NCBI GenBank assembly: GCA_947644325.1
Contig: CANRZD010000012.1
Coordinates: 1 to 32,270, forward strand
From: an uncultured Clostridia bacterium
Lineage (GTDB): Bacteria > Bacillota > Clostridia > Oscillospirales > Acutalibacteraceae
Reading direction: 5' to 3'
Length of the DNA: 32,270 nt
The position numbers and the translations under genes were made by a program. The notes beneath the pieces are model-generated. The model was given only the letters and a program-made list of their open reading frames with translations, was not told where the DNA came from and did no database searches. This document shows, piece by piece, positions 22,213-31,576 of this stretch (positions within the stretch are counted from its first letter, which is position 1; each line of letters opens with the position of its first letter).

Positions 22213-22241
22213 ATTATAGCAAATTCCCGGGGTTTCGTCAA
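22213..22241 (-). promoter_or_regulatory. sigmaA-type promoter of typA
   Basis: On the minus strand TTGACG (22241-22236), a 17-base spacer and perfect TATAAT (22218-22213). Transcription would start near 22206, about 35 bases before the typA ATG. Confidence 0.8.
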
Positions 22242-22264
22242 TGGAGAACCCATGCACTTCCGCC

Positions 22265-22294
22265 TTGACCTTCCCCCCGTCTATGGATTATAAT
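22265..22294 (+). promoter_or_regulatory. sigmaA-type promoter of folE
   Basis: TTGACC (22265-22270), an 18-base spacer and perfect TATAAT (22289-22294). It is back to back with the typA promoter, 23 bases between the two -35 elements. Only about 25 bases remain before the start codon, leaving no room for a tetrahydrofolate riboswitch. Confidence 0.75.
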
Positions 22295-22324
22295 AGGGGG
22301 AAAGAAACCGGAAGGGGGAAAAGG

Positions 22325-22888
22325 ATGGACAGGGAGAAAATAAAGCGCGCGGTGGCGGATATACTGGAGGCCATCGGCGAGGACCCGGACAGGGAGGGCC
22401 TGCGGGAGACGCCGGACCGGGTGGCCCGCATGTACGAGGAGATTTTTTCGGGGCTTTCAGCAGACCCCGGGGAGCACCTTAAGATCTTTCACGAGGGGGG
22501 CCGCCACGGGGAACTGGTGCTTATAAAGGACATCCCCCTTTACTCGGTGTGCGAGCACCACCTGCTGCCCTTTGTGGGCCATGCCCACATCGCCTACATC
22601 CCAAAGGACGGGCGGGTGCTGGGGCTGTCGAAGTTTGCGAGAATTGTAGACGCCTTCGCCCGCAGGCCCCAGGTGCAGGAGAGGCTCACGAGGCAGATTG
22701 CCGACTTCCTCTATGAGAGCATGGAGCCCCTGGGGGTGGCGGTGTTCATCGGGGCCGAGCACCTGTGCATGACCATGCGGGGGGCCCGGGCCGCCGGGGC
22801 CCTTACAGAGACCTCGGCCCTCAGGGGCTGCATGCGCTCTGACGCCAAGACCCGGGCGGAGGTCATGGCCCTTTTAGGGGGGAAATAG
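22325..22888 (+). CDS. folE: GTP cyclohydrolase I
   Basis: A 187-residue enzyme converting GTP to 7,8-dihydroneopterin triphosphate and formate, the first step of folate synthesis. Zinc ligands are visible: Cys76 and His79 in CEHHLLPF and Cys148 in [13 protein letters not shown], which marks the zinc-dependent type IA enzyme. [23 protein letters not shown] is the conserved mid-region. Start at 22325 follows GGAAGGGGGAAAAGG; an in-frame ATG at 22241 lies upstream of the promoter and is rejected. It is followed after three bases by folP. Confidence 0.96.
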
Positions 22889-22891
22889 CCT

Positions 22892-23710
22892 ATGGAGACC
22901 CCCGTTTTCAAAGCCCGGGGGCATATCCTGCCCCTAAATAGGCCCTACATCATGGGCATACTGAACGTGACCCCCGACTCCTTCTCTGACGGCGGGCGGT
23001 ACTTTTCCCCGGCCGCGGCCCTGAAAAGGGCCCGGGAGCTGGAGGCGGAGGGGGCGGACATCCTGGACGTGGGCGGGCAGTCCACCCGGCCGGGGCACAG
23101 GCCCATCCCCTGGGAGGAGGAGTGGGAGCGCCTCTCCGCCGTGCTGCCGGGCATTCTGCGGGAAACGGCCCTGCCGGTATCTATTGACACCTTTTACCCC
23201 CAGGTGGCCAAAAAGGCCCTGGAGATGGGGGCCCACATCATAAACGATGTGGGGGGCTTCCCCGACGAAATGCTGGAGGCCGTGGCGGGCTCGGGCTGCG
23301 GGTGCGTCGTCATGTGCCCTGCGGGGGGCGGGGAGGACATCTTCGCCCAGGTGAAAAACTTTTTCTTAGACCGCCTTGCCGCCGCCGGGCGCTTCGGCAT
23401 CGAGAAAGCGCGCCTGTGCTTTGACCCGGGCATCGGCTTCGGCAAAACATTAGACGAAAACCTGGCCCTCATCGCCCGGGTGGACAAGACACGCATCCCC
23501 GGCATCGCTTATCTCATGGCCGCGTCCCGCAAGCGTGTCACCGGCGCGCCCTGCGGGGACCCGCCCTTTAACGAGCGCCTGCCCGCTACCATAGCGGCCC
23601 ACACGGCGGCTATTCTGGGCGGGGCGGACATCGTGCGCGTGCACGACGCAGCCCCCGGGAAGCAAGCCGCCCTTATGGCCGCGGCCCTTAAACGAGCCTA
23701 TTCTTTTTAG
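22892..23710 (+). CDS. folP: Dihydropteroate synthase
   Basis: A 272-residue enzyme that joins 6-hydroxymethyl-dihydropterin pyrophosphate with p-aminobenzoate, the sulfonamide target. Family motifs are MGILNVTPDSFSDGG, DILDVGGQSTRPG, the ALEMGAHIINDVGG segment, DPGIGFGKT, SRKRVTG and a terminal IVRVHDA. One oddity: the segment usually written MHMxGxP reads VVMCPAGGGED here, replacing the His with Cys and losing the Met-Gln-Gly-Asn-Pro pattern. Length is normal and other motifs are intact, so the enzyme is probably active. It follows folE by three bases and precedes the M18-GH13 fusion gene by 18 bases. Confidence 0.95.
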   Translation: METPVFKARGHILPLNRPYIMGILNVTPDSFSDGGRYFSPAAALKRARELEAEGADILDVGGQSTRPGHRPIPWEEEWERLSAVLPGILRETALPVSIDTFYPQVAKKALEMGAHIINDVGGFPDEMLEAVAGSGCGCVVMCPAGGGEDIFAQVKNFFLDRLAAAGRFGIEKARLCFDPGIGFGKTLDENLALIARVDKTRIPGIAYLMAASRKRVTGAPCGDPPFNERLPATIAAHTAAILGGADIVRVHDAAPGKQAALMAAALKRAYSF

Positions 23711-23728
23711 ATTTTGGGAGGAATCATT

Positions 23729-26482
23729 ATGCAAAGCACTGTTTCAAAGCTGCTGGACTTCATAAACCAGAGCCCCACCGCCGCCCACGCCATAGAGGCG
23801 GCCCGGGCCCGGCTGGAGGAGGCCGGGTTCACTGAGCTGAAGGAATCGGAGCCCTGGGCCCTGGCCCCCGGCGGGAAGTACTTTATGACCCGCTCTCTTA
23901 CGAGCCTCATGGCCTTCAAGTTCCCCCAGCGGGGCTTCCGGGGGTTTTCCGTCTGCGCCGCCCACAGCGACTCCCCTGCCTTCAAGGTAAAGGGCAGCCC
24001 TGAGATGCGGGTGGAGGACCACTACACCCGGCTCAACACCGAGGTGTACGGCGGCGCGCTTTTGAACCCCTGGTTCGATCGGCCCCTGTCGGTGGCGGGG
24101 CGGCTGGCCCTGCGCACGGGGGAGGGCGTCAAGACCGTCCTCACCAACATCCCCCGGGACCTGCTGGTGATCCCCAGCCTTGCCATCCATCTGGACCGGG
24201 AGGCCAACAACGGCCGGAAGCTGGACGCCCAGAAGGACACCCTGCCCCTTTTGGGCGGCAAGGAGGCCGACGTGCTGGCCCTGGCCGCCGAGGCCGCCGG
24301 GGTCAGGAAGGAAGACATCCTCTCTTATGACCTGTATCTCTATAACCGGGCCCCGGGCGCTTTGGTGGGGGCGGGGGAAGAGTTCATCTGCTCGCCCAGG
24401 CTCGACGACTTAGAATGCGCTTTTTCGGCCCTTTCGGCCTTTTTGGAGGCGGAAAACGGGGAAAACGTCACCATCTGCGCCATTTTTGACAGCGAGGAGA
24501 CCGGCAACCAGACCCGCCAGGGGGCGGACTCCCACCTGCTTTCGGACCTGCTCTCCCGCATCTCCCTGTGCGCGGGCAAGAGCCCGGAGGAGCACCTGCG
24601 GGCCCTGTCCCAGAGCTTCCTGCTCTCCGCCGACAACGCCCACGCCGTGCACCCCAACTACGCCGACAAGTCGGACCCCACCAGCCGCTGCTACTTAAAC
24701 GGCGGCGTGGTGGTAAAGCACGGCGTGCGCTACGGCACCGACGCCGTGTCCGCCGGGGTCTTCGCGAAGCTCTGCGAGGACGCGGGGGTGCCGGTGCAGA
24801 GCTATTATAACCACTCCTCCATCCCTGCCGGGGGCACCTTGGGGAACATCTCCGGCTCCCACGTGTCCATCCCCACGGTGGACATAGGCCTTACCCAGCT
24901 TTCCATGCACTCCCCCTGCGAAACCGCCGGGCGGGAGGACCTCACCCACATGATAAACGCCATGACGGCCTTTTACCGCAGCGCCATCCTCTGTGAAGGG
25001 GACGGCCAGTACACCCTGCGCCCCGCGGGCGAGGCCCCGGCCCCCGAGCCCGAGCCGGAGCCGGAGCCGGAGCCTGTACCCCAACCGGAGGAGAAAAAAG
25101 AAGAAAAGAGAGAAGAAAAGAAAGAGGAAAAGAAGTTGGAGATAAAAGCACAGCCCTGGAAGATCGAGAACAAGCCCGGGTGGCAGAACGAGTCGGTGTT
25201 CTACCAGATTTACCCCATGGGCTTCTGCGGCGCGCCCTTTGAAAACGACGGGAAGCTCACCCACAACATCCTGAAAGTCAAGGACTGGGTGCCCCACCTG
25301 CAGAAGCTGGGGGTAGGGGCCGTGTACTTCTCCCCGGTGTTCGAATCGGACACCCACGGCTACGACACCCGGGACTACCGGAAGATCGACACCCGCCTGG
25401 GCACAAACGACGATTTCAAGGAGGTCTGCGGCGCCCTGCACAAGGCGGGCATCCGGGTGGTCTTAGACGGTGTGTTCAACCACGTGGGCCGGGGCTTCTG
25501 GGCCTTCAAGGACGTGCAGGAAAAGCGCCAGGCTTCCCCCTATAAGGACTGGTTCCACATCAATTTCGGGGGCAACTCCGGCTATAACGACGGCTTCTGG
25601 TACGAGGGCTGGGAGGGGCACTTCGAGCTGGTGAAGCTGAACCTTCGCAACCCCCAGGTGGCGGAGCACCTGCTCTCCTGCGTGGGCCAGTGGATGGAGG
25701 AGTTCGGCATAGACGGCCTGCGGCTGGACGTGGCCTATATGGTAGACCAGGACTTCATGCGCAGGCTCCACAGCTTCTGCCGGGAAAGGCGGCCGGACTT
25801 CTTCCTTTTAGGGGAGATGATACACGGGGACTACCGCCGCATTATGAACCCGGAGATGCTCGATAGCGTCACGAACTACGAGTGCTACAAGGGCCTTTAC
25901 TCCTCCTTTAACTCCCTCAATATGTTCGAGCTGGCCCACTCCCTCAACCGCCAGTTCGGGCCCGAGGGCTGGACCCTCTATAAGGGCGAGCACCTGGTGT
26001 GCTTTGCGGATAACCACGACGTGTCCCGCATCCACAGCATATTGACCGACAAGAACCAGATAAAGCCCCTGTACGCCGCCCTTTACGGCATGCCGGGCAT
26101 CCCCTGCCTCTATTATGGCAGCGAGTGGGGCGCCCTGGGCGACAAGAAGGACGGGGACCCCGCCCTTCGCCCCTGCTTCGATAAGCCGGTGGAAAACGAC
26201 CTGACGGAGTTTTTGGGGGCCCTGGGCCGGGCCAAGGCGGGAAGCCCCGCCCTGTGCTACGGGGACTTCAAAAACGAGACGCTTCTCAACAAGCAGTGGG
26301 TCATGCGGCGCTCGTGCCCGGAGGAGACGGTGCTGGTGGCCGTAAACGCCGACGGGAGCGGCTTTAACATCCAGGTAAACCACCACGGCCCCGCCACGGA
26401 CCTGCTCACCGGGGAGCGGGTGAACCTGAACGGCTGCATCGAACTCCCCCCCTACGGGGTGAAGCTCTATAAATTGGGCTGA
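23729..26482 (+). CDS. Fusion: M18 family aminopeptidase + GH13 alpha-glucan glycosidase
   Basis: A 917-residue protein. Residues 1-435 are an M18 aminopeptidase (aspartyl aminopeptidase type). Metal-binding segments are AAHSDSP (His79), PRLDDLE, DSEETGNQ, SADNAHAVHPNY and QLSMHSPCE, all expected motifs in order. A linker of about 30 residues follows (440-471), Pro-Glu repeats then Lys/Glu-rich. From about 486 to the end is a GH13 alpha-amylase-family domain: DGVFNHVG (region I), GLRLDVAY with nucleophile Asp667 (II), LLGEMIHGD with acid/base Glu696 (III) and FADNHDVSR with Asp764 (IV). No signal peptide, so cytosolic. GGGAGG lies 7 bases before the ATG at 23729. It would be a bifunctional peptide and glucan degrader; this pairing is not one I recognise from known families. 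Confidence 0.92.
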   Translation: MQSTVSKLLDFINQSPTAAHAIEAARARLEEAGFTELKESEPWALAPGGKYFMTRSLTSLMAFKFPQRGFRGFSVCAAHSDSPAFKVKGSPEMRVEDHYTRLNTEVYGGALLNPWFDRPLSVAGRLALRTGEGVKTVLTNIPRDLLVIPSLAIHLDREANNGRKLDAQKDTLPLLGGKEADVLALAAEAAGVRKEDILSYDLYLYNRAPGALVGAGEEFICSPRLDDLECAFSALSAFLEAENGENVTICAIFDSEETGNQTRQGADSHLLSDLLSRISLCAGKSPEEHLRALSQSFLLSADNAHAVHPNYADKSDPTSRCYLNGGVVVKHGVRYGTDAVSAGVFAKLCEDAGVPVQSYYNHSSIPAGGTLGNISGSHVSIPTVDIGLTQLSMHSPCETAGREDLTHMINAMTAFYRSAILCEGDGQYTLRPAGEAPAPEPEPEPEPEPVPQPEEKKEEKREEKKEEKKLEIKAQPWKIENKPGWQNESVFYQIYPMGFCGAPFENDGKLTHNILKVKDWVPHLQKLGVGAVYFSPVFESDTHGYDTRDYRKIDTRLGTNDDFKEVCGALHKAGIRVVLDGVFNHVGRGFWAFKDVQEKRQASPYKDWFHINFGGNSGYNDGFWYEGWEGHFELVKLNLRNPQVAEHLLSCVGQWMEEFGIDGLRLDVAYMVDQDFMRRLHSFCRERRPDFFLLGEMIHGDYRRIMNPEMLDSVTNYECYKGLYSSFNSLNMFELAHSLNRQFGPEGWTLYKGEHLVCFADNHDVSRIHSILTDKNQIKPLYAALYGMPGIPCLYYGSEWGALGDKKDGDPALRPCFDKPVENDLTEFLGALGRAKAGSPALCYGDFKNETLLNKQWVMRRSCPEETVLVAVNADGSGFNIQVNHHGPATDLLTGERVNLNGCIELPPYGVKLYKLG
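25046..25075 (+). repeat. Five tandem GAGCCN hexanucleotides
   Basis: Units GAGCCC, GAGCCG, GAGCCG, GAGCCG, GAGCCT encode five Glu-Pro pairs in the inter-domain linker of the M18-GH13 fusion. Such repeats can vary in copy number by slippage, which would keep frame and change linker length. Confidence 0.8.
25087..25135 (+). repeat. Purine-only tract of 49 bases
   Basis: Every base from 25087 to 25135 is A or G. It encodes the Lys/Glu-rich part of the M18-GH13 linker and is strikingly A-rich compared with the GC-rich surroundings. The region could form triplex or slipped structures. Confidence 0.8.
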
Positions 26483-26528: not shown

Positions 26529-26572
26529 AGGAACGGACCTTTTTGCAGAAAAGTTTGAGAGAAAGGCTGGAA

Positions 26573-27922
26573 ATGACCATGCAAGAGCAATTTCCAAAGC
26601 ATCCTTTCAGGACCCACGGCGGAGCGCCTGTCCCCCACCACAAGAACACGTGGCGGGAGCCCAGCGCCGTGATGCCGCCCCCTGAACGGGTGGTGATCCC
26701 TATGCAGCAGCACATCGGCGCACCCTGCAGGCCCCTGGTGAAAAAGGGCGACCACGTGTACGCGGGCCAGGTCATTGGGGACAATGACGCCTTTGTGTGC
26801 GCGCCCATCCACGCTTCCGTGTCCGGCACGGTAAACGGCATCGTGAAGGTGCTGCTCTCCGGCGGGCAGACCACAGAGGCCGTGGTCATCGACTCGGACG
26901 GGCTGATGGAGGAGGACCCCTCTATCACGCCGCCGCCCCCCATCACCAACAAGAAGGAGCTGGCGGAGGCCGCCCGGAAGTCGGGGCTGGTGGGCCTGGG
27001 AGGCGCGGGCTTCCCGGCCCATGTGAAGCTGAACGTCCCCGAGGGCAAGTCCATCGACACCCTCATCATCAACGTGGCCGAGTGCGAGCCCTATGTGACC
27101 TCTGACCACCGGGAGGCCCTGGAAAACGGCAAGAACGTGCTGGAGGGCATCTACAAGGTCAAGGAGATCCTGGGCGTGCACCGGGTGCTCATCGCCGTGG
27201 AGGACAATAAGCCCGACGTGATAGAAAAGCTCACGGAGATCGCCGACGACCCGGAGAAGGACCCCAAAGACGAGGTGCGGGTGCTGACCCTTAAAAGCCG
27301 CTACCCCCAGGGCGCGGAGAAGGTGCTGGTGCAGGCCTGCACCGGGAGAAAGGTGGCCCCCGGGCAGTTGCCCGCCGACGTGGGGTGCTTGGTGATGAAC
27401 ATCGCCTCTGTGTCCTTCTTAGCCAGCTACATGCGCACGGGCTTCCCTTTGACATTAAAGCGGGTGACCATCGACGGCTCGGCCATCAAAGAGCCCAAGA
27501 ACGTCATCGTGCCCATCGGCACGCCCATAAAGGACGTGGTAAAGTTCTGCGGCGGGTATAAGGCGGAGCCCAAGAAGCTGCTCATGGGCGGGCCCATGAT
27601 GGGCATCGCCATCACTTCCGACGAGCTGCCTATCTTAAAGCAGAATAACGCCATATTGGCCTTCGACGAAAAAGAGGCCCGCCAGTATGAGACCACCGCC
27701 TGCATCCGCTGCGGCCGGTGCGTGGCGGCCTGCCCCATGGAGCTGATGCCCACGAAGCTGGAGAAGGCCGCGGAGAAAAAAGATGTGGAAGCCCTCCAGT
27801 CCCTGGATGTGATGACCTGCATGGAGTGCGGCTGCTGCGCCTTCTCGTGCCCGGCCGGGCGCAGGCTGGTGCAGGCCATCCGGCTGGGGAAATCCATTGT
27901 GAGAAAGGCAGGGAAGAAATAA
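26573..27922 (+). CDS. rnfC: Rnf complex subunit RnfC
   Basis: A 450-residue peripheral subunit of the ferredoxin:NAD+ oxidoreductase, on the cytosolic face, holding the NADH/FMN site and two [4Fe-4S] clusters. Seen are the N-terminal PFRTHGGAPVPHHKNT segment, VGLGGAGFPAHVKLN (nucleotide-binding glycine motif), and two ferredoxin motifs, CIRCGRCVAACP and CMECGCCAFSCP, near the C-terminus. The ATG at 26573 has GAAAGG six bases upstream; TTG at 26543 would extend it but has no support. The stop overlaps the rnfD start by one base (TAATG). First gene of the clostridial order C-D-G-E-A-B. Confidence 0.96.
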   Translation: MTMQEQFPKHPFRTHGGAPVPHHKNTWREPSAVMPPPERVVIPMQQHIGAPCRPLVKKGDHVYAGQVIGDNDAFVCAPIHASVSGTVNGIVKVLLSGGQTTEAVVIDSDGLMEEDPSITPPPPITNKKELAEAARKSGLVGLGGAGFPAHVKLNVPEGKSIDTLIINVAECEPYVTSDHREALENGKNVLEGIYKVKEILGVHRVLIAVEDNKPDVIEKLTEIADDPEKDPKDEVRVLTLKSRYPQGAEKVLVQACTGRKVAPGQLPADVGCLVMNIASVSFLASYMRTGFPLTLKRVTIDGSAIKEPKNVIVPIGTPIKDVVKFCGGYKAEPKKLLMGGPMMGIAITSDELPILKQNNAILAFDEKEARQYETTACIRCGRCVAACPMELMPTKLEKAAEKKDVEALQSLDVMTCMECGCCAFSCPAGRRLVQAIRLGKSIVRKAGKK

Positions 27923-28884
27923 TGGACAAGCTCATCGTATCGTCTTCCCCCCACTTTAACGGGAAAAAGACCACCCAGAACATCATGCTGGACGTTATCA
28001 TCGGCCTTGTGCCCGCCATGATCGCCTCTGTGGTGATCTTCGGCATACGGGCGGCGGTGGTGATTGTCACCTGCATCGCCTCCTGTGTTCTCAGCGAATA
28101 CCTCTGCCGCCGGGTCATGAAGCGCCCCCAGACCGTGGGGGACCTGTCCTGCGTGGTCACGGGCATTTTGCTGGCCCTCAATCTGCCGGTGACCATCCAC
28201 CCCTTGATGGCGGTGTTCGGCAGCGTGGCGGCTATTGTCGTGGTAAAGCAGATGTTCGGCGGCATCGGGCAGAACTTCGTAAACCCGGCCCTTACTGCCC
28301 GTATCATTTTGATGAACTCTTTCCCCGCCCCCATGACCCACTGGACGGCGGCCTTCGACTACTCGGCCACGGCCGACGCGGTGACCACGGCCACGCCTCT
28401 TTCGGGGCAGATGTATACATACTCTCCGGGTAGCGCCCCGGACTATTGGCAGCTGTTTTTAGGCACCCACGGGGGGTGCCTGGGCGAGACCTGCGCCCTG
28501 GCCATCATCATCGGCGGGGTGTACCTGATTTTAAGGAAAGTCATCAGCCCGGTCATCCCGGTCACCTACCTGGGCACGGTGGCGGTGTTCTCCGCCCTGC
28601 TGGGCCGGGACCCCCTCTTTGACCTTTTGGCGGGCGGGCTCATGCTGGGCGCCTTCTTCATGGCCACGGACTACACCACCAGCCCCCTGTACTTTAAGGC
28701 CCGCATCGTCTTTGCCGTGGGCTGCGGCCTGCTGACGGTGCTGATACGGGAGTTCGGTTCCCTGCCCGAGGGCGTCAGCTACTCCATTGTGCTCATGAAC
28801 ATCATGACGCCGCTCATTGAGCGCTACGTGAAGCCCCGGGCCTTCGGCAAGCCCAAGGAGAAAAAAGGAAAGGGGGCGGCGTGA
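27922..28884 (+). CDS. rnfD: Rnf complex subunit RnfD
   Basis: A 320-residue integral membrane subunit with about ten hydrophobic segments, relating to NqrB. The loop segment VTTATPLSG matches the region where RnfD carries covalently bound FMN through a threonine; the exact residue is inferred. GGIGQNFVNPALTARI is a conserved RnfD motif. Predicted to move electrons and Na+ or H+ across the membrane with the other Rnf subunits. The start at 27922 is fixed by the family N-terminus and one-base overlap with the rnfC stop. It is followed by rnfG with a four-base overlap. Confidence 0.95.
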   Translation: MDKLIVSSSPHFNGKKTTQNIMLDVIIGLVPAMIASVVIFGIRAAVVIVTCIASCVLSEYLCRRVMKRPQTVGDLSCVVTGILLALNLPVTIHPLMAVFGSVAAIVVVKQMFGGIGQNFVNPALTARIILMNSFPAPMTHWTAAFDYSATADAVTTATPLSGQMYTYSPGSAPDYWQLFLGTHGGCLGETCALAIIIGGVYLILRKVISPVIPVTYLGTVAVFSALLGRDPLFDLLAGGLMLGAFFMATDYTTSPLYFKARIVFAVGCGLLTVLIREFGSLPEGVSYSIVLMNIMTPLIERYVKPRAFGKPKEKKGKGAA

Positions 28885-29459
28885 GCATGACGGCGAAATT
28901 AGACGCGAAAAGCGTGCTGGCCCCGGCGGCCATCCTCTTTGCCATATGCATCGTGGTGGCGGCGGCTTTGGCTGGCACCAACGCCCTGACAAAGGACCGC
29001 ATCGCCCAGGCGGCTTTGGCGAAAGCCGAGGAGAGCCGCATGGTGGTGCTGCCCGGCGCGGAAAGCTTTGAGGAAGCGGACGGCCACTACGCCGGTTTAG
29101 ACGGCGCGGGGCAGACCGTGGGCTATGTCTTTGAGACGGAAGGCAAAGGCTACGGCGGCACGGTGAAAGTCATGACCGGCATAAGCTGTGAGGGCGATGT
29201 CACCGGCGTGGTGATCTTGAGCCACAGCGAGACCCCGGGCCTGGGGGCGAACGCCGAGAAGGAAAGCTTCAGAGAACAGTACAAGCAGCCCGTGGCAAAT
29301 CTTCCCGGCGGCCTGCAGGTGATAAAGTTCCAGGCCCCAAAGGAAGGCGAGATACAGGCCATGACCGGCGCCACCATCACCAGCACGGCGGTGACAAACG
29401 CCGTGAACGCGGCCATCGAGCAGTACCAGGACGCCTACGCGTCGGAAGGGGGGAACTAG
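28881..29459 (+). CDS. rnfG: Rnf complex subunit RnfG
   Basis: A 192-residue subunit. One N-terminal membrane helix (about 15-33) anchors an FMN-binding domain outside the cytoplasmic membrane. The flavinylation motif is MTGATITS near residue 156, where the second Thr of TGAT is expected to take FMN covalently from an ApbE-type transferase, not encoded in this window. SHSETPGLGA is a further family motif. The GTG at 28881 overlaps the rnfD TGA; the ATG at 28887 is an equally reasonable start, both behind AAAGGGGG. The stop is one base before rnfE. Confidence 0.94.
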   Translation: MSMTAKLDAKSVLAPAAILFAICIVVAAALAGTNALTKDRIAQAALAKAEESRMVVLPGAESFEEADGHYAGLDGAGQTVGYVFETEGKGYGGTVKVMTGISCEGDVTGVVILSHSETPGLGANAEKESFREQYKQPVANLPGGLQVIKFQAPKEGEIQAMTGATITSTAVTNAVNAAIEQYQDAYASEGGN

Positions 29460-29460
29460 C

Positions 29461-30153
29461 ATGGATGAGAAAAAGAGCCTGTGGCAGGAATTTACCAAGG
29501 GCATCATAAAGGAAAACCCAGTGCTGCGGCTGATCTTAGGCTGCTGCGCCACCCTGGCCGTGACCACCGCCGCTTCTAACGCCATCGGCATGGGCGCTGC
29601 CACCACCTTCGTGCTGGTGTGCTCCAACGCGGCCATCTCCCTTCTGCGCAACATCATCCCCAACAAAGTGCGCATCCCGGCGTTCATCACCATCATCGCG
29701 GGCTTTGTGACGGTGGTGCAGCTGTTTATAAAGGCTTTCTCCCCGGCGCTGGACACGGCCCTGGGGGTGTTCCTGCCGCTTATTGTGGTAAACTGCATCA
29801 TTTTGGGCCGGGCGGAGATGTTCGCAAGCAAGAATAAGGTCCTGCCCTCCATTATAGACGGCCTGGGCATGGGCGTGGGCTTTACCGCCGCCATGCTCGC
29901 CATGGGCATCATACGGGAGCTTCTGGGCGCGGGCACGGTTTTCGGCCTGCCCATTCTCTCCGGGTTTATGGAGCCCATCATCATCTTCCTGCTGCCCCCG
30001 GGGGGATTCTTCGTGTTCGGCATGCTCATCGCTTTGGCGGGCAAGCTCTCGAAAGAGGGCCATGCCCCGGAGTCTACCGCGTGCGCCCACTGCCCCTTGG
30101 CGCAGAGCTGCTCGAAGATCAGTGAAAAACAGGGAAAGGGGGCGGCTGAATAA
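29461..30153 (+). CDS. rnfE: Rnf complex subunit RnfE
   Basis: A 230-residue integral membrane subunit with about six helices, related to NqrD. Conserved segments are GIIKENPVLRLILGCCATLAVT, NAAISLLRNIIPNKVRIP and NCIILGRAEMFA. The tail after the last helix is longer than the membrane core requires and holds three cysteines in CAHCPLAQSC, a small possible metal-binding group of unknown function. The Shine-Dalgarno is weak (AAGGGGGG inside rnfG). The stop overlaps rnfA by one base (TAATG). Part of the ion-pumping core with RnfA and RnfD. Confidence 0.95.
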   Translation: MDEKKSLWQEFTKGIIKENPVLRLILGCCATLAVTTAASNAIGMGAATTFVLVCSNAAISLLRNIIPNKVRIPAFITIIAGFVTVVQLFIKAFSPALDTALGVFLPLIVVNCIILGRAEMFASKNKVLPSIIDGLGMGVGFTAAMLAMGIIRELLGAGTVFGLPILSGFMEPIIIFLLPPGGFFVFGMLIALAGKLSKEGHAPESTACAHCPLAQSCSKISEKQGKGAAE

Positions 30154-30770
30154 TGGACGCCCAATCGGTAAAAACCCTGGTGGCCATCTTCCTGGCGGCC
30201 ATCCTGACGGAAAACTATGTGCTCAATAAGTTTTTGGGCATCTGCCCGTTTCTGGGCGTATCGAAAAAGCTGGACACGGCCTTTGGCATGAGCTGCGCGG
30301 TGACGGTGGTCATGGTCATCGCCACGGCCGTGACCTGGCCCCTTTACACCTACCTGCTGGTGCCAAATGGGCTCGAGTATTTGCAGACCATCGTGTTCAT
30401 CCTGGTCATCGCGGCACTGGTGCAGCTTTTAGAGACGGTGCTGCGCAAATACATGCCGCCCCTTTACAGCGCCCTGGGCATCTACCTGCCCCTTATCACC
30501 ACCAACTGCGCCGTGCTGGGCGTGACCATGCTGGTGCTGGAAAAGGGCGCCGCGGACCCCAGCTTCGGGTTCGTGCAGTCTTTAGTCAACGCCTTTGGCT
30601 CGGGCGTCGGGTTCCTGGTGGCTATGCTCCTCTTTGCGGGGGTGCGCGAGCGCCTGGAGGACTGCGACATCCCTGAGACCTTCCGGGGCCTGCCCATCAC
30701 CCTGGTAGCCGCGTCCCTGGTGGCCGTTTCCTTCTTAGGGTTCAATGGCCTCGTGGACCGCTTGATGTAA
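30153..30770 (+). CDS. rnfA: Rnf complex subunit RnfA
   Basis: A 205-residue integral membrane subunit with about six helices, related to NqrE. Hallmarks are the early AAILTENYVLNKFLGICPFLGVSKK and YLPLITTNCAVLGVTML. RnfA and RnfE are inverted homologues that share a membrane-embedded iron site between half-helices with cysteines; the Cys in NCAVLG here and in NCIILG of RnfE fit. The start is set by the family N-terminus and the one-base overlap with rnfE, with GGAAAGGGGG upstream. It is 14 bases before rnfB. Confidence 0.95.
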   Translation: MDAQSVKTLVAIFLAAILTENYVLNKFLGICPFLGVSKKLDTAFGMSCAVTVVMVIATAVTWPLYTYLLVPNGLEYLQTIVFILVIAALVQLLETVLRKYMPPLYSALGIYLPLITTNCAVLGVTMLVLEKGAADPSFGFVQSLVNAFGSGVGFLVAMLLFAGVRERLEDCDIPETFRGLPITLVAASLVAVSFLGFNGLVDRLM

Positions 30771-30784
30771 GGAGGACGAAGCTT

Positions 30785-31576
30785 ATGGAATTTATTACCC
30801 CTATAGTCCTTGTGGGCGTCATCGGCCTTTTGGCCGGCGTCATACTGGCGGTGGCCTCCATCGTCATGGCCGTGCCCAAAGACGAAAAGGCCGAAGCCCT
30901 GGAGGAGATCCTGCCCGGGGCCAACTGCGGGGCCTGCGGGTACTCCGGGTGCCCGGGGTACGCGGCGGCCATGTCAAAGGGCGAGGCCCAGCCGGGGCTG
31001 TGCTCCCCGGGCGGCCCGGCGGTGGCGAAGAAGTGCGCGGAGATTTTAGGCGGCGGCGACGTGGAAATGGAAATTAAATGCGCCCTGGTGCGCTGCATGG
31101 GCAGCTACGACAATACCGCTGACAAAATGGAGTACGACGGCCTGGAGGGCTGCAACGCCGCTGTTTTGCTGGCGGGGGGCTCCAGCAGCTGCCTTTCCGG
31201 CTGCATGGGCCTTGGCGACTGCGTGCGGGCCTGCGAGTACGGTGCCGTGGAAGTCTGCAACGGCGTGGCGAAGATAGACCCCGCATTGTGCAAAGCCTGC
31301 GGCAAGTGCGTGAGCGCCTGCCCCAAGGGGCTCATCACCCTGGCCCCTGTGAAGAAGCAGGCCGTGGTGCGCTGCCATAACTGCGACAAGGGCAAGGCCG
31401 TCATGGACGTGTGCAAGGTGGGGTGCATCAGCTGCACCAAGTGCGTGAAGACCTGCCCCGAAGGGGCCATCGCTATGGAAAACGGCTGCGCCGCTGTGGA
31501 CCCCAAAAAGTGCACCGGCTGCGGCCAGTGCGTGGAAAGCTGCCCCCGACACGTGATCACCCTGCTGGACGTGTAA
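30785..31576 (+). CDS. rnfB: Rnf complex subunit RnfB
   Basis: A 263-residue subunit that accepts electrons from reduced ferredoxin. An N-terminal membrane helix is followed by the RnfB-specific cluster motif GANCGACGYSGCPGYA and a run of cysteine motifs: GCMGLGDCVRAC, CKACGKCVSACP, CHNC, CISCTKCVKTCP and CTGCGQCVESCP. They suggest several [4Fe-4S] clusters, as in other clostridial RnfB proteins, which are richer than the gammaproteobacterial form. AAGGAGG lies 8 bases before the ATG. It closes the operon and is followed by an intrinsic terminator. Confidence 0.95.
   Translation: MEFITPIVLVGVIGLLAGVILAVASIVMAVPKDEKAEALEEILPGANCGACGYSGCPGYAAAMSKGEAQPGLCSPGGPAVAKKCAEILGGGDVEMEIKCALVRCMGSYDNTADKMEYDGLEGCNAAVLLAGGSSSCLSGCMGLGDCVRACEYGAVEVCNGVAKIDPALCKACGKCVSACPKGLITLAPVKKQAVVRCHNCDKGKAVMDVCKVGCISCTKCVKTCPEGAIAMENGCAAVDPKKCTGCGQCVESCPRHVITLLDV

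Follow-up and report, generated by a model that had tools for sequence, protein, structure and literature searches.

The M18 aminopeptidase DNPEP has five metal ligands, H.D.E.D.H; its His170 comes from the adjacent subunit and acts in the active site of the neighbour, and Lys374 is a criterion for acidic specificity (PMC3472314). The same paper states that Lys374 is absent from the bacterial M18 enzymes solved by then, whose acidic specificity was doubted by the authors (PMC3472314). Two M18 relatives of known structure, 2ijz and 7u5h, each contain 12 chains in a single entry. Entry 7dde also contains 12 chains; its chain is 929 residues long, the M18 part covers residues 16–461 only, and further proteins appear in the entry name. 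In the nearest set of bacterial structures (3wt4, 4njq, 4njr), the 12 chains are spread over three entries, so that this set by itself is no proof of a dodecamer. The chains of 3wt4 and 2ijz, which we take to be the M18 aminopeptidase of Pseudomonas aeruginosa, and those of DNPEP (7u5h, 4dyo) resemble the M18 half of the protein described here over nearly the whole chain.

The corresponding relatives on the GH13 side are a cyclomaltodextrinase, a neopullulanase and a maltogenic amylase (1ea9, 1j0h, 1sma). Their catalytic and C-terminal domains align with 433–435 residues of the query, and the catalytic Asp, Glu and Asp are common to all of them. About 120 N-terminal residues of these enzymes, presumably the CBM34 domain, have no counterpart in our protein.

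The window, that is, the whole stretch of 32,270 bp analysed, contains a gene that joins both families. Whereas the M18 chains listed above (3wt4, 2ijz, 7u5h, 4dyo) are single enzymes, the protein encoded in the window adds a linker and a GH13 domain. This is a new, unusual combination of two known families and a rare architecture. An earlier interpretation made from the letters of this DNA (the sequence-only reading) knew of no description of such a protein, and our search of literature listings, for the most part of non-subscription papers, likewise found no M18-GH13 protein. In annotation, these proteins are easily named for one half only.

The fused gene and its neighbours

The M18-GH13 gene occupies positions 23729..26482 of the forward strand and encodes 917 aa followed by a stop. 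The single uninterrupted frame with two enzymes described in the sequence-only reading is indeed open, and both domains are recognised by Pfam; the M18 and GH13 motifs named there are all present in the translation. A TTG located 15 bases 5' of the ATG provides an alternative start, giving 922 aa. On the reverse strand of the gene, the one frame translated is interrupted by stops.

The upstream neighbours are folE (22241–22888) and folP (22892–23710), and the downstream one is rnfC (26543..27922), the first gene of an Rnf cluster; all three are on the forward strand. The folP stop at 23710 is followed by 18 bases up to the fusion ATG. These bases include GGGAGG (about 23716..23721, forward strand), read from the sequence as a likely Shine-Dalgarno element, 5 bases from the folP stop and 7 bases from the ATG. 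Because of these short distances, folE, folP and the fusion probably form a single transcript. Elsewhere, the genome has one further M18 match, a distant one, and four further GH13-type matches, of which two are weak; hence neither activity need be provided by the fusion only.

The two halves

The M18 aminopeptidase domain comprises residues 1–418 (23729..24982, forward strand), as determined by Pfam, NCBIfam and alignment. Pfam Peptidase_M18 (PF02127) matches residues 11–416 over the whole model (1–432; E 3.7e-111, 372 bits vs the cut-off of 24), and NCBIfam NF002759 (M18 family aminopeptidase) scores 497 bits vs the cut-off of 356. The metal signature H.D.E.D.H consists of H79, D226, E257, D302 and H394, with E256 as the catalytic Glu. 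When we placed the DNPEP residue numbers on the M18 alignment, H154 aligned with the loop-swapped His170 and K330 with Lys374. At all these positions the residue is the same in 33 of 33 M18 domains; the alignment comprised 28 domains of the genus, that of the window among them, and five of other genera. The M18 half and the comparison set of 3wt4, 2ijz and DNPEP have in common the five metal ligands, the catalytic Glu and the loop-swapped His; K330 aligns with the Lys for which a role in selecting acidic residues has been proposed. Given the position of K330, a preference of the M18 half for acidic residues is plausible.

The GH13 catalytic and C-terminal domains comprise residues 485–917 (25181..26479, forward strand; Pfam and alignment with relatives of known structure). 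Pfam Alpha-amylase (PF00128) matches residues 493–806 (E 1.6e-50, 173 bits vs the cut-off of 22). Seven residues of regions I–IV are present (D580, H585, R665, D667, E696, H763, D764) and identical in 117 of 117 GH13 orthologs. We take D667 to be the nucleophile, E696 the acid/base and D764 the third Asp; region V, LVKLN, resembles that of the neopullulanase type (MPKLN). Among the best 25 of the 43 NCBIfam models matched, the GH13 models all scored below their own cut-offs, including the best equivalogs, cyclomaltodextrinase (176 vs 540 bits) and maltodextrin glucosidase (172 vs 568 bits). Despite the missed cut-offs, the GH13 half may act like one of these enzymes.

The earlier prediction of two full-length, catalytically equipped enzymes is in agreement with the match to the whole M18 model and the invariance of the catalytic residues in both alignments. 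Both halves look catalytically competent, and both are under purifying selection: in three pairs of fused genes, dN/dS was 0.155–0.193 for the M18 part and 0.073–0.104 for the GH13 part.

Distribution of the fusion

All genome-search counts refer to sampled genomes, mostly with two or three candidates scored per genome, among the matches listed. One of the tests proposed beforehand was whether relatives always encode two separate proteins, and they do not. Of the 29 genomes of the genus, the window's own included, six carry the fusion (G000, G127, G129, G136, G143 and G144), and 22 of 29 have separate M18 and GH13 genes, the fusion thus being the minority state. The separate genes lie close together on one strand, M18 first, in 20 of the 29 genomes. 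In 16 of these pairs the GH13 match starts 29–391 bases after the M18 stop; in the other four (G121, G126, G133, G145) the distance is 478 to 1908 bases, with coding sequence inserted. The two genes are on different contigs in G131 and G139, and G120 yielded nothing but a GH13 fragment at the end of a contig. Overall, of the 28 genomes of the genus with both genes, 26 keep them linked: 22 directly adjacent or fused and four with an insert.

An assembly or sequencing artefact merging two genes might be suspected, given that the window was taken from an assembly in 136 contigs and that most members of the genus keep the genes apart. However, the other five fused genomes carry the fusion on contigs between 27 and 757 kb long, with linkers that differ and are all open. 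Since it recurs in this form, the fusion is neither a chance event nor a frameshift nor an assembly error; the artefact is refuted for the lineage, which leaves it next to no probability.

A scan of species genomes yielded at least three confirmed loci. One of them, L036:5001-7856 in Neglectibacter sp. X58, encodes 951 aa, and the match spans all 917 residues of the window protein with 77% identity in the best segment (80% in alignment A1). G129 is apparently this genome; the gene next to the fusion is identical in both. The X58 protein has the same architecture, with a longer chain and a different linker, and a Mrp-like ATPase (named by eye) lies downstream of its gene where the window has rnfC. 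The two other confirmed loci are weak GH13 matches (25 and 27%). NCBI places Neglectibacter in Oscillospiraceae, Clostridia.

Outside the genus, no M18-GH13 fusion was found among the matches listed in 120 genomes of the family, 394 of the order and 245 of the class (overlapping sets). Unfused tandem genes were present, among the matches listed, in G355 and G364, which belong to two other genera of the same family; in G747 the M18 and GH13 genes are divergent and about 2.5 kb apart. Two long frames were considered as further fusions and rejected: the 891-residue frame of G364, which would have extended the fusion to a second genus, since one stop parts the genes, and the 837-residue frame of G441, as an M18 fusion, since it has no second domain.

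Origin of the fusion

Maximum-likelihood trees were built for the concatenated M18 and GH13 domains of the 31 genomes with both, and for each domain alone. G120 (gene truncated by a contig end), G060 (a distant paralog) and G079 (a fragment) had been dropped. The concatenated tree unites five fused genomes in a clade with support 100 and places the fused G143 apart from them, beside the unfused G138 (support 97). G143 is beside G138 in the M18-only tree too (92); in the GH13-only tree it is placed beside G131, G132 and G139 instead (79). Forcing all six fusions together made the tree worse by 26.5 log units. A single origin is thus disfavoured by the AU test (p = 0.041), a marginal rejection, and we conclude from these trees that the fusion probably arose twice.

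Among the fetched stretches, folE and folP lie 5' of the fusion in G000, G127, G129 and G144, that is, beside it in three of the four other members of the larger fused clade; rnfC is 3' of the fusion in G000, G127, G136 and G144. None of these three genes was found by the G143 fusion in the 6.8 kb fetched, nor around unfused pairs in the fetched stretches. Two origins fit the different flanks of G143, yet the same genes are equally absent by the unfused pairs, and the flanks add little weight.

In G140, G142 and G364, the last of which belongs to another genus, the unfused genes are in one frame with a single stop between them, so that a natural starting point for fusion exists today. Separate genes, same-frame genes parted by one stop and probably two fusion lineages coexist in the genus, which makes this gene fusion traceable step by step.

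Linker

The halves are joined by a low-complexity linker, Pro/Glu and then Lys/Glu, at residues about 432–480 (25022..25168, forward strand). The sequence-only reading had called it purpose-built. It is certainly distinct: P, E, K and A make up 83% of residues 433–478 (n=46), whereas their share never exceeds 46% in stretches of that length within the domains. In the six fused genomes, 64 to 104 codons separate the aligned domains, more than most gaps between the unfused genes. It is not clearly purpose-built, however: the linkers of different fusions have a common composition but no conserved sequence, and the window's genome has P/E tracts in five or more other proteins.

The latter was studied with the pattern (PE)3 in eight genomes of the genus, using the reversed pattern as a control. 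Matches were found in 8 of 8 genomes. There were 16 overlapping matches on six contigs in the window's genome (control 0), 16 in G144, 11 in G127 and 6 in G129; the control gave 0 to 2 matches in the seven other genomes. The tracts are located within many unrelated proteins (20 fetched stretches), although one, L184, resembles a spurious frame. Eight tract-containing proteins were scanned with Pfam. Those from the window's genome are RpoC, FliF, one ComFB protein, one MORN-repeat protein and a fifth that matched no family; the others are an FtsY-type GTPase in G144, and MutL and Obg in G129. As long P/E repeats are common in the proteome, by themselves they are no argument for a fusion-specific linker. 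The habit is uneven. Only one or two matches each were found in G136, G143, G147 and G138, and in the fused G136 and G143 (1 and 2 matches) the argument against a fusion-specific linker is weaker for this reason.

The linker could be where the chain is cut, or where the GH13 half is also started internally. In the latter case the gene would have a dual output, the fusion and a stand-alone GH13 protein. In-frame starts with SD-like stretches are present in six of six linkers, for instance AGGAGG-8-ATG in G129 and AAGGAGG-8-GTG in G144. However, such sites arise from E and K codons, and out of 2000 synonymous reshuffles of each of the six genes, 432 to 1254 gave a site at least as good as the real one. 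For the gene in the window, even the best candidate, GAGG-8-TTG, is weak. We regard dual output as very unlikely.

Proposed mode of action

Our preferred reading, to which we assign a probability of about 0.72, is that of a two-enzyme gene that originated from a conserved gene pair, probably by two fusions, and encodes two independent cytosolic enzymes, the M18 part probably forming a dodecamer with GH13 arms. The ancestor would be a conserved pair of an M18 gene followed by a gene for a GH13 alpha-glucan hydrolase in a Neglectibacter-like genus. The boundary between the two genes would have been lost, and a linker rich in Pro, Glu, Ala and Lys grown, probably twice. As no signal peptide is evident by eye, both enzymes are probably cytosolic. 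The M18 half would have to oligomerise to be active, since its active site needs a residue of the neighbouring subunit (the counterpart of His170), and judging from the solved relatives it would probably assemble into the M18 dodecamer. Such a particle would bear as many as twelve GH13 domains, each on a flexible arm; the 12 chains of 929 residues in 7dde suggest that it can accommodate a large C-terminal partner. The M18 half would trim N-terminal residues, possibly acidic ones, from peptides, and the GH13 half would hydrolyse short alpha-glucans. As a null assumption, no substrate would pass between the halves, and the benefit of the fusion, if any, would be co-production at a fixed ratio.

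An alternative is that the fusion was selected because the two activities belong together, either in a particle scavenging peptides and glucans or in the turnover of glycoproteins or glycogen-bound proteins. The linkage of the pair in nearly all genus genomes with both genes though the flanks differ, the apparently repeated fusion and the purifying selection on both halves are what one would expect then. On the other hand, beyond the genus adjacency was seen only in G355 and G364, both from the same family, and the genes of G747 are divergent (among the matches listed), while GH13 proteins of this lineage are also fused to enzymes of no common pathway known to us. For the role in glycogen- or glycopeptide-linked turnover proposed in the sequence-only reading, we found nothing in support: the fusion is flanked by folate and Rnf genes, and the flanks differ between the fused lineages. 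We consider a joint role unlikely.

Other fusions of the GH13 lineage

The most interesting thread is the hub pattern of the GH13 half. The set of 117 distinct GH13 ortholog sequences combines best matches with loci picked for long frames, which inflates the share of fusions among them. It contains six proteins with M18, 16 with DUF1653, one with a hexapeptide-repeat protein and one with CobA/CobO. Gfo/Idh/MocA is the N-terminal partner in four. A C-terminal GNAT domain is present in four, all in members of the genus with a separate M18 gene, and nine have C-terminal tails without an assigned domain; Pfam, run on two kinds of such tails, gave no match there. The literature search found no description of DUF1653 combined with an alpha-amylase. 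Parsimony on the GH13 tree gave two changes for M18, two for GNAT, three for DUF1653 and one each for Gfo/Idh/MocA, hexapeptide and CobO. Like M18-GH13, the Gfo/Idh/MocA-GH13, GH13-GNAT, GH13-hexapeptide, GH13-CobA/CobO and GH13-DUF1653 proteins have an orthologous GH13 half and, in many cases, similar linkers; their partners are unrelated to M18.

These observations could mean that the GH13 domain is a generic tether by which various partner enzymes are brought to a particular place, such as alpha-glucan, and that it collects partners for this reason. By our count, a second recognised domain is present in 14 of 34 family genomes with a GH13 ortholog among the matches listed (the family search covered 120 genomes, each a different genus, and one GH13 fragment was left out of the 34). 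Six kinds of partners are recognised by Pfam, and no partner domains were found on M18 orthologs outside the genus, among the matches listed. However, this M18 control is partial, as long frames of distant M18 paralogs (G001, G060) are outside its scope, and the 117 sequences are enriched in fusions, as noted. Moreover, the invariance of all seven catalytic-region residues indicates that GH13 has been kept as an enzyme, not as a binder only, and no glucan-binding module was recognised. We give the tether very little probability. The broader proposal that this GH13 lineage of Oscillospiraceae-related Clostridia is a promiscuous hub, its intact hydrolase domain repeatedly capturing unrelated enzymes, often through long disordered linkers, and serving them as a common anchor, perhaps on intracellular alpha-glucan, with M18-GH13 as a glucan-docked peptidase particle, seems to us quite unlikely. 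One GH13 domain with many unrelated partners raises the question of what a glycosidase does for its partner enzymes. In 7 of the 31 loci examined, further GH13 orthologs, from outside the order, bear a small module at the C-terminus, and the end of this module is conserved.

Other partners of the GH13 domain

In four genomes of the same genus, where the GH13 gene is located downstream of a separate M18 gene, the C-terminus of GH13 carries a GNAT acetyltransferase, connected via a low-complexity linker (loci L082 in G121, L079 in G133, L075 in G145 and L081 in G126). The GNAT domain was assigned using Pfam, run on L082. In some of these genomes, GNAT-like and proline-iminopeptidase-like hydrolase frames were seen by eye in the interval between the M18 and GH13 genes.

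Orthologs of the GH13 half of the fusion bear a Gfo/Idh/MocA oxidoreductase at the N-terminus in four genera (L132, 479–2908; L136, 896–3382; L133 and L135). At L120 (2417–4585) a long P/E/A linker connects GH13 with an ATP:corrinoid adenosyltransferase (CobA/CobO/BtuR), and the partner of GH13 at L134 (1457–3319, minus strand) is a hexapeptide-repeat protein, which may be gamma-carbonic-anhydrase-like. A conserved small module of about 45 residues follows the GH13 domain C-terminally after a charged linker in several families (L126, L129, L130, L227–L232 and L234); no Pfam match to this module was found in L126.

Pro-Glu tracts and the downstream region

In the window's own genome, Pro-Glu repeat tracts are contained in unrelated proteins, namely RpoC, FliF, ComFB, a MORN-repeat protein and one unnamed protein (L168–L172 on contigs C23, C60, C80, C83 and C103); the reversed pattern had no matches in this genome. 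Directly downstream of the M18-GH13 fusion lies an Rnf cluster (26543–31576) with the gene order rnfC-rnfD-rnfG-rnfE-rnfA-rnfB.
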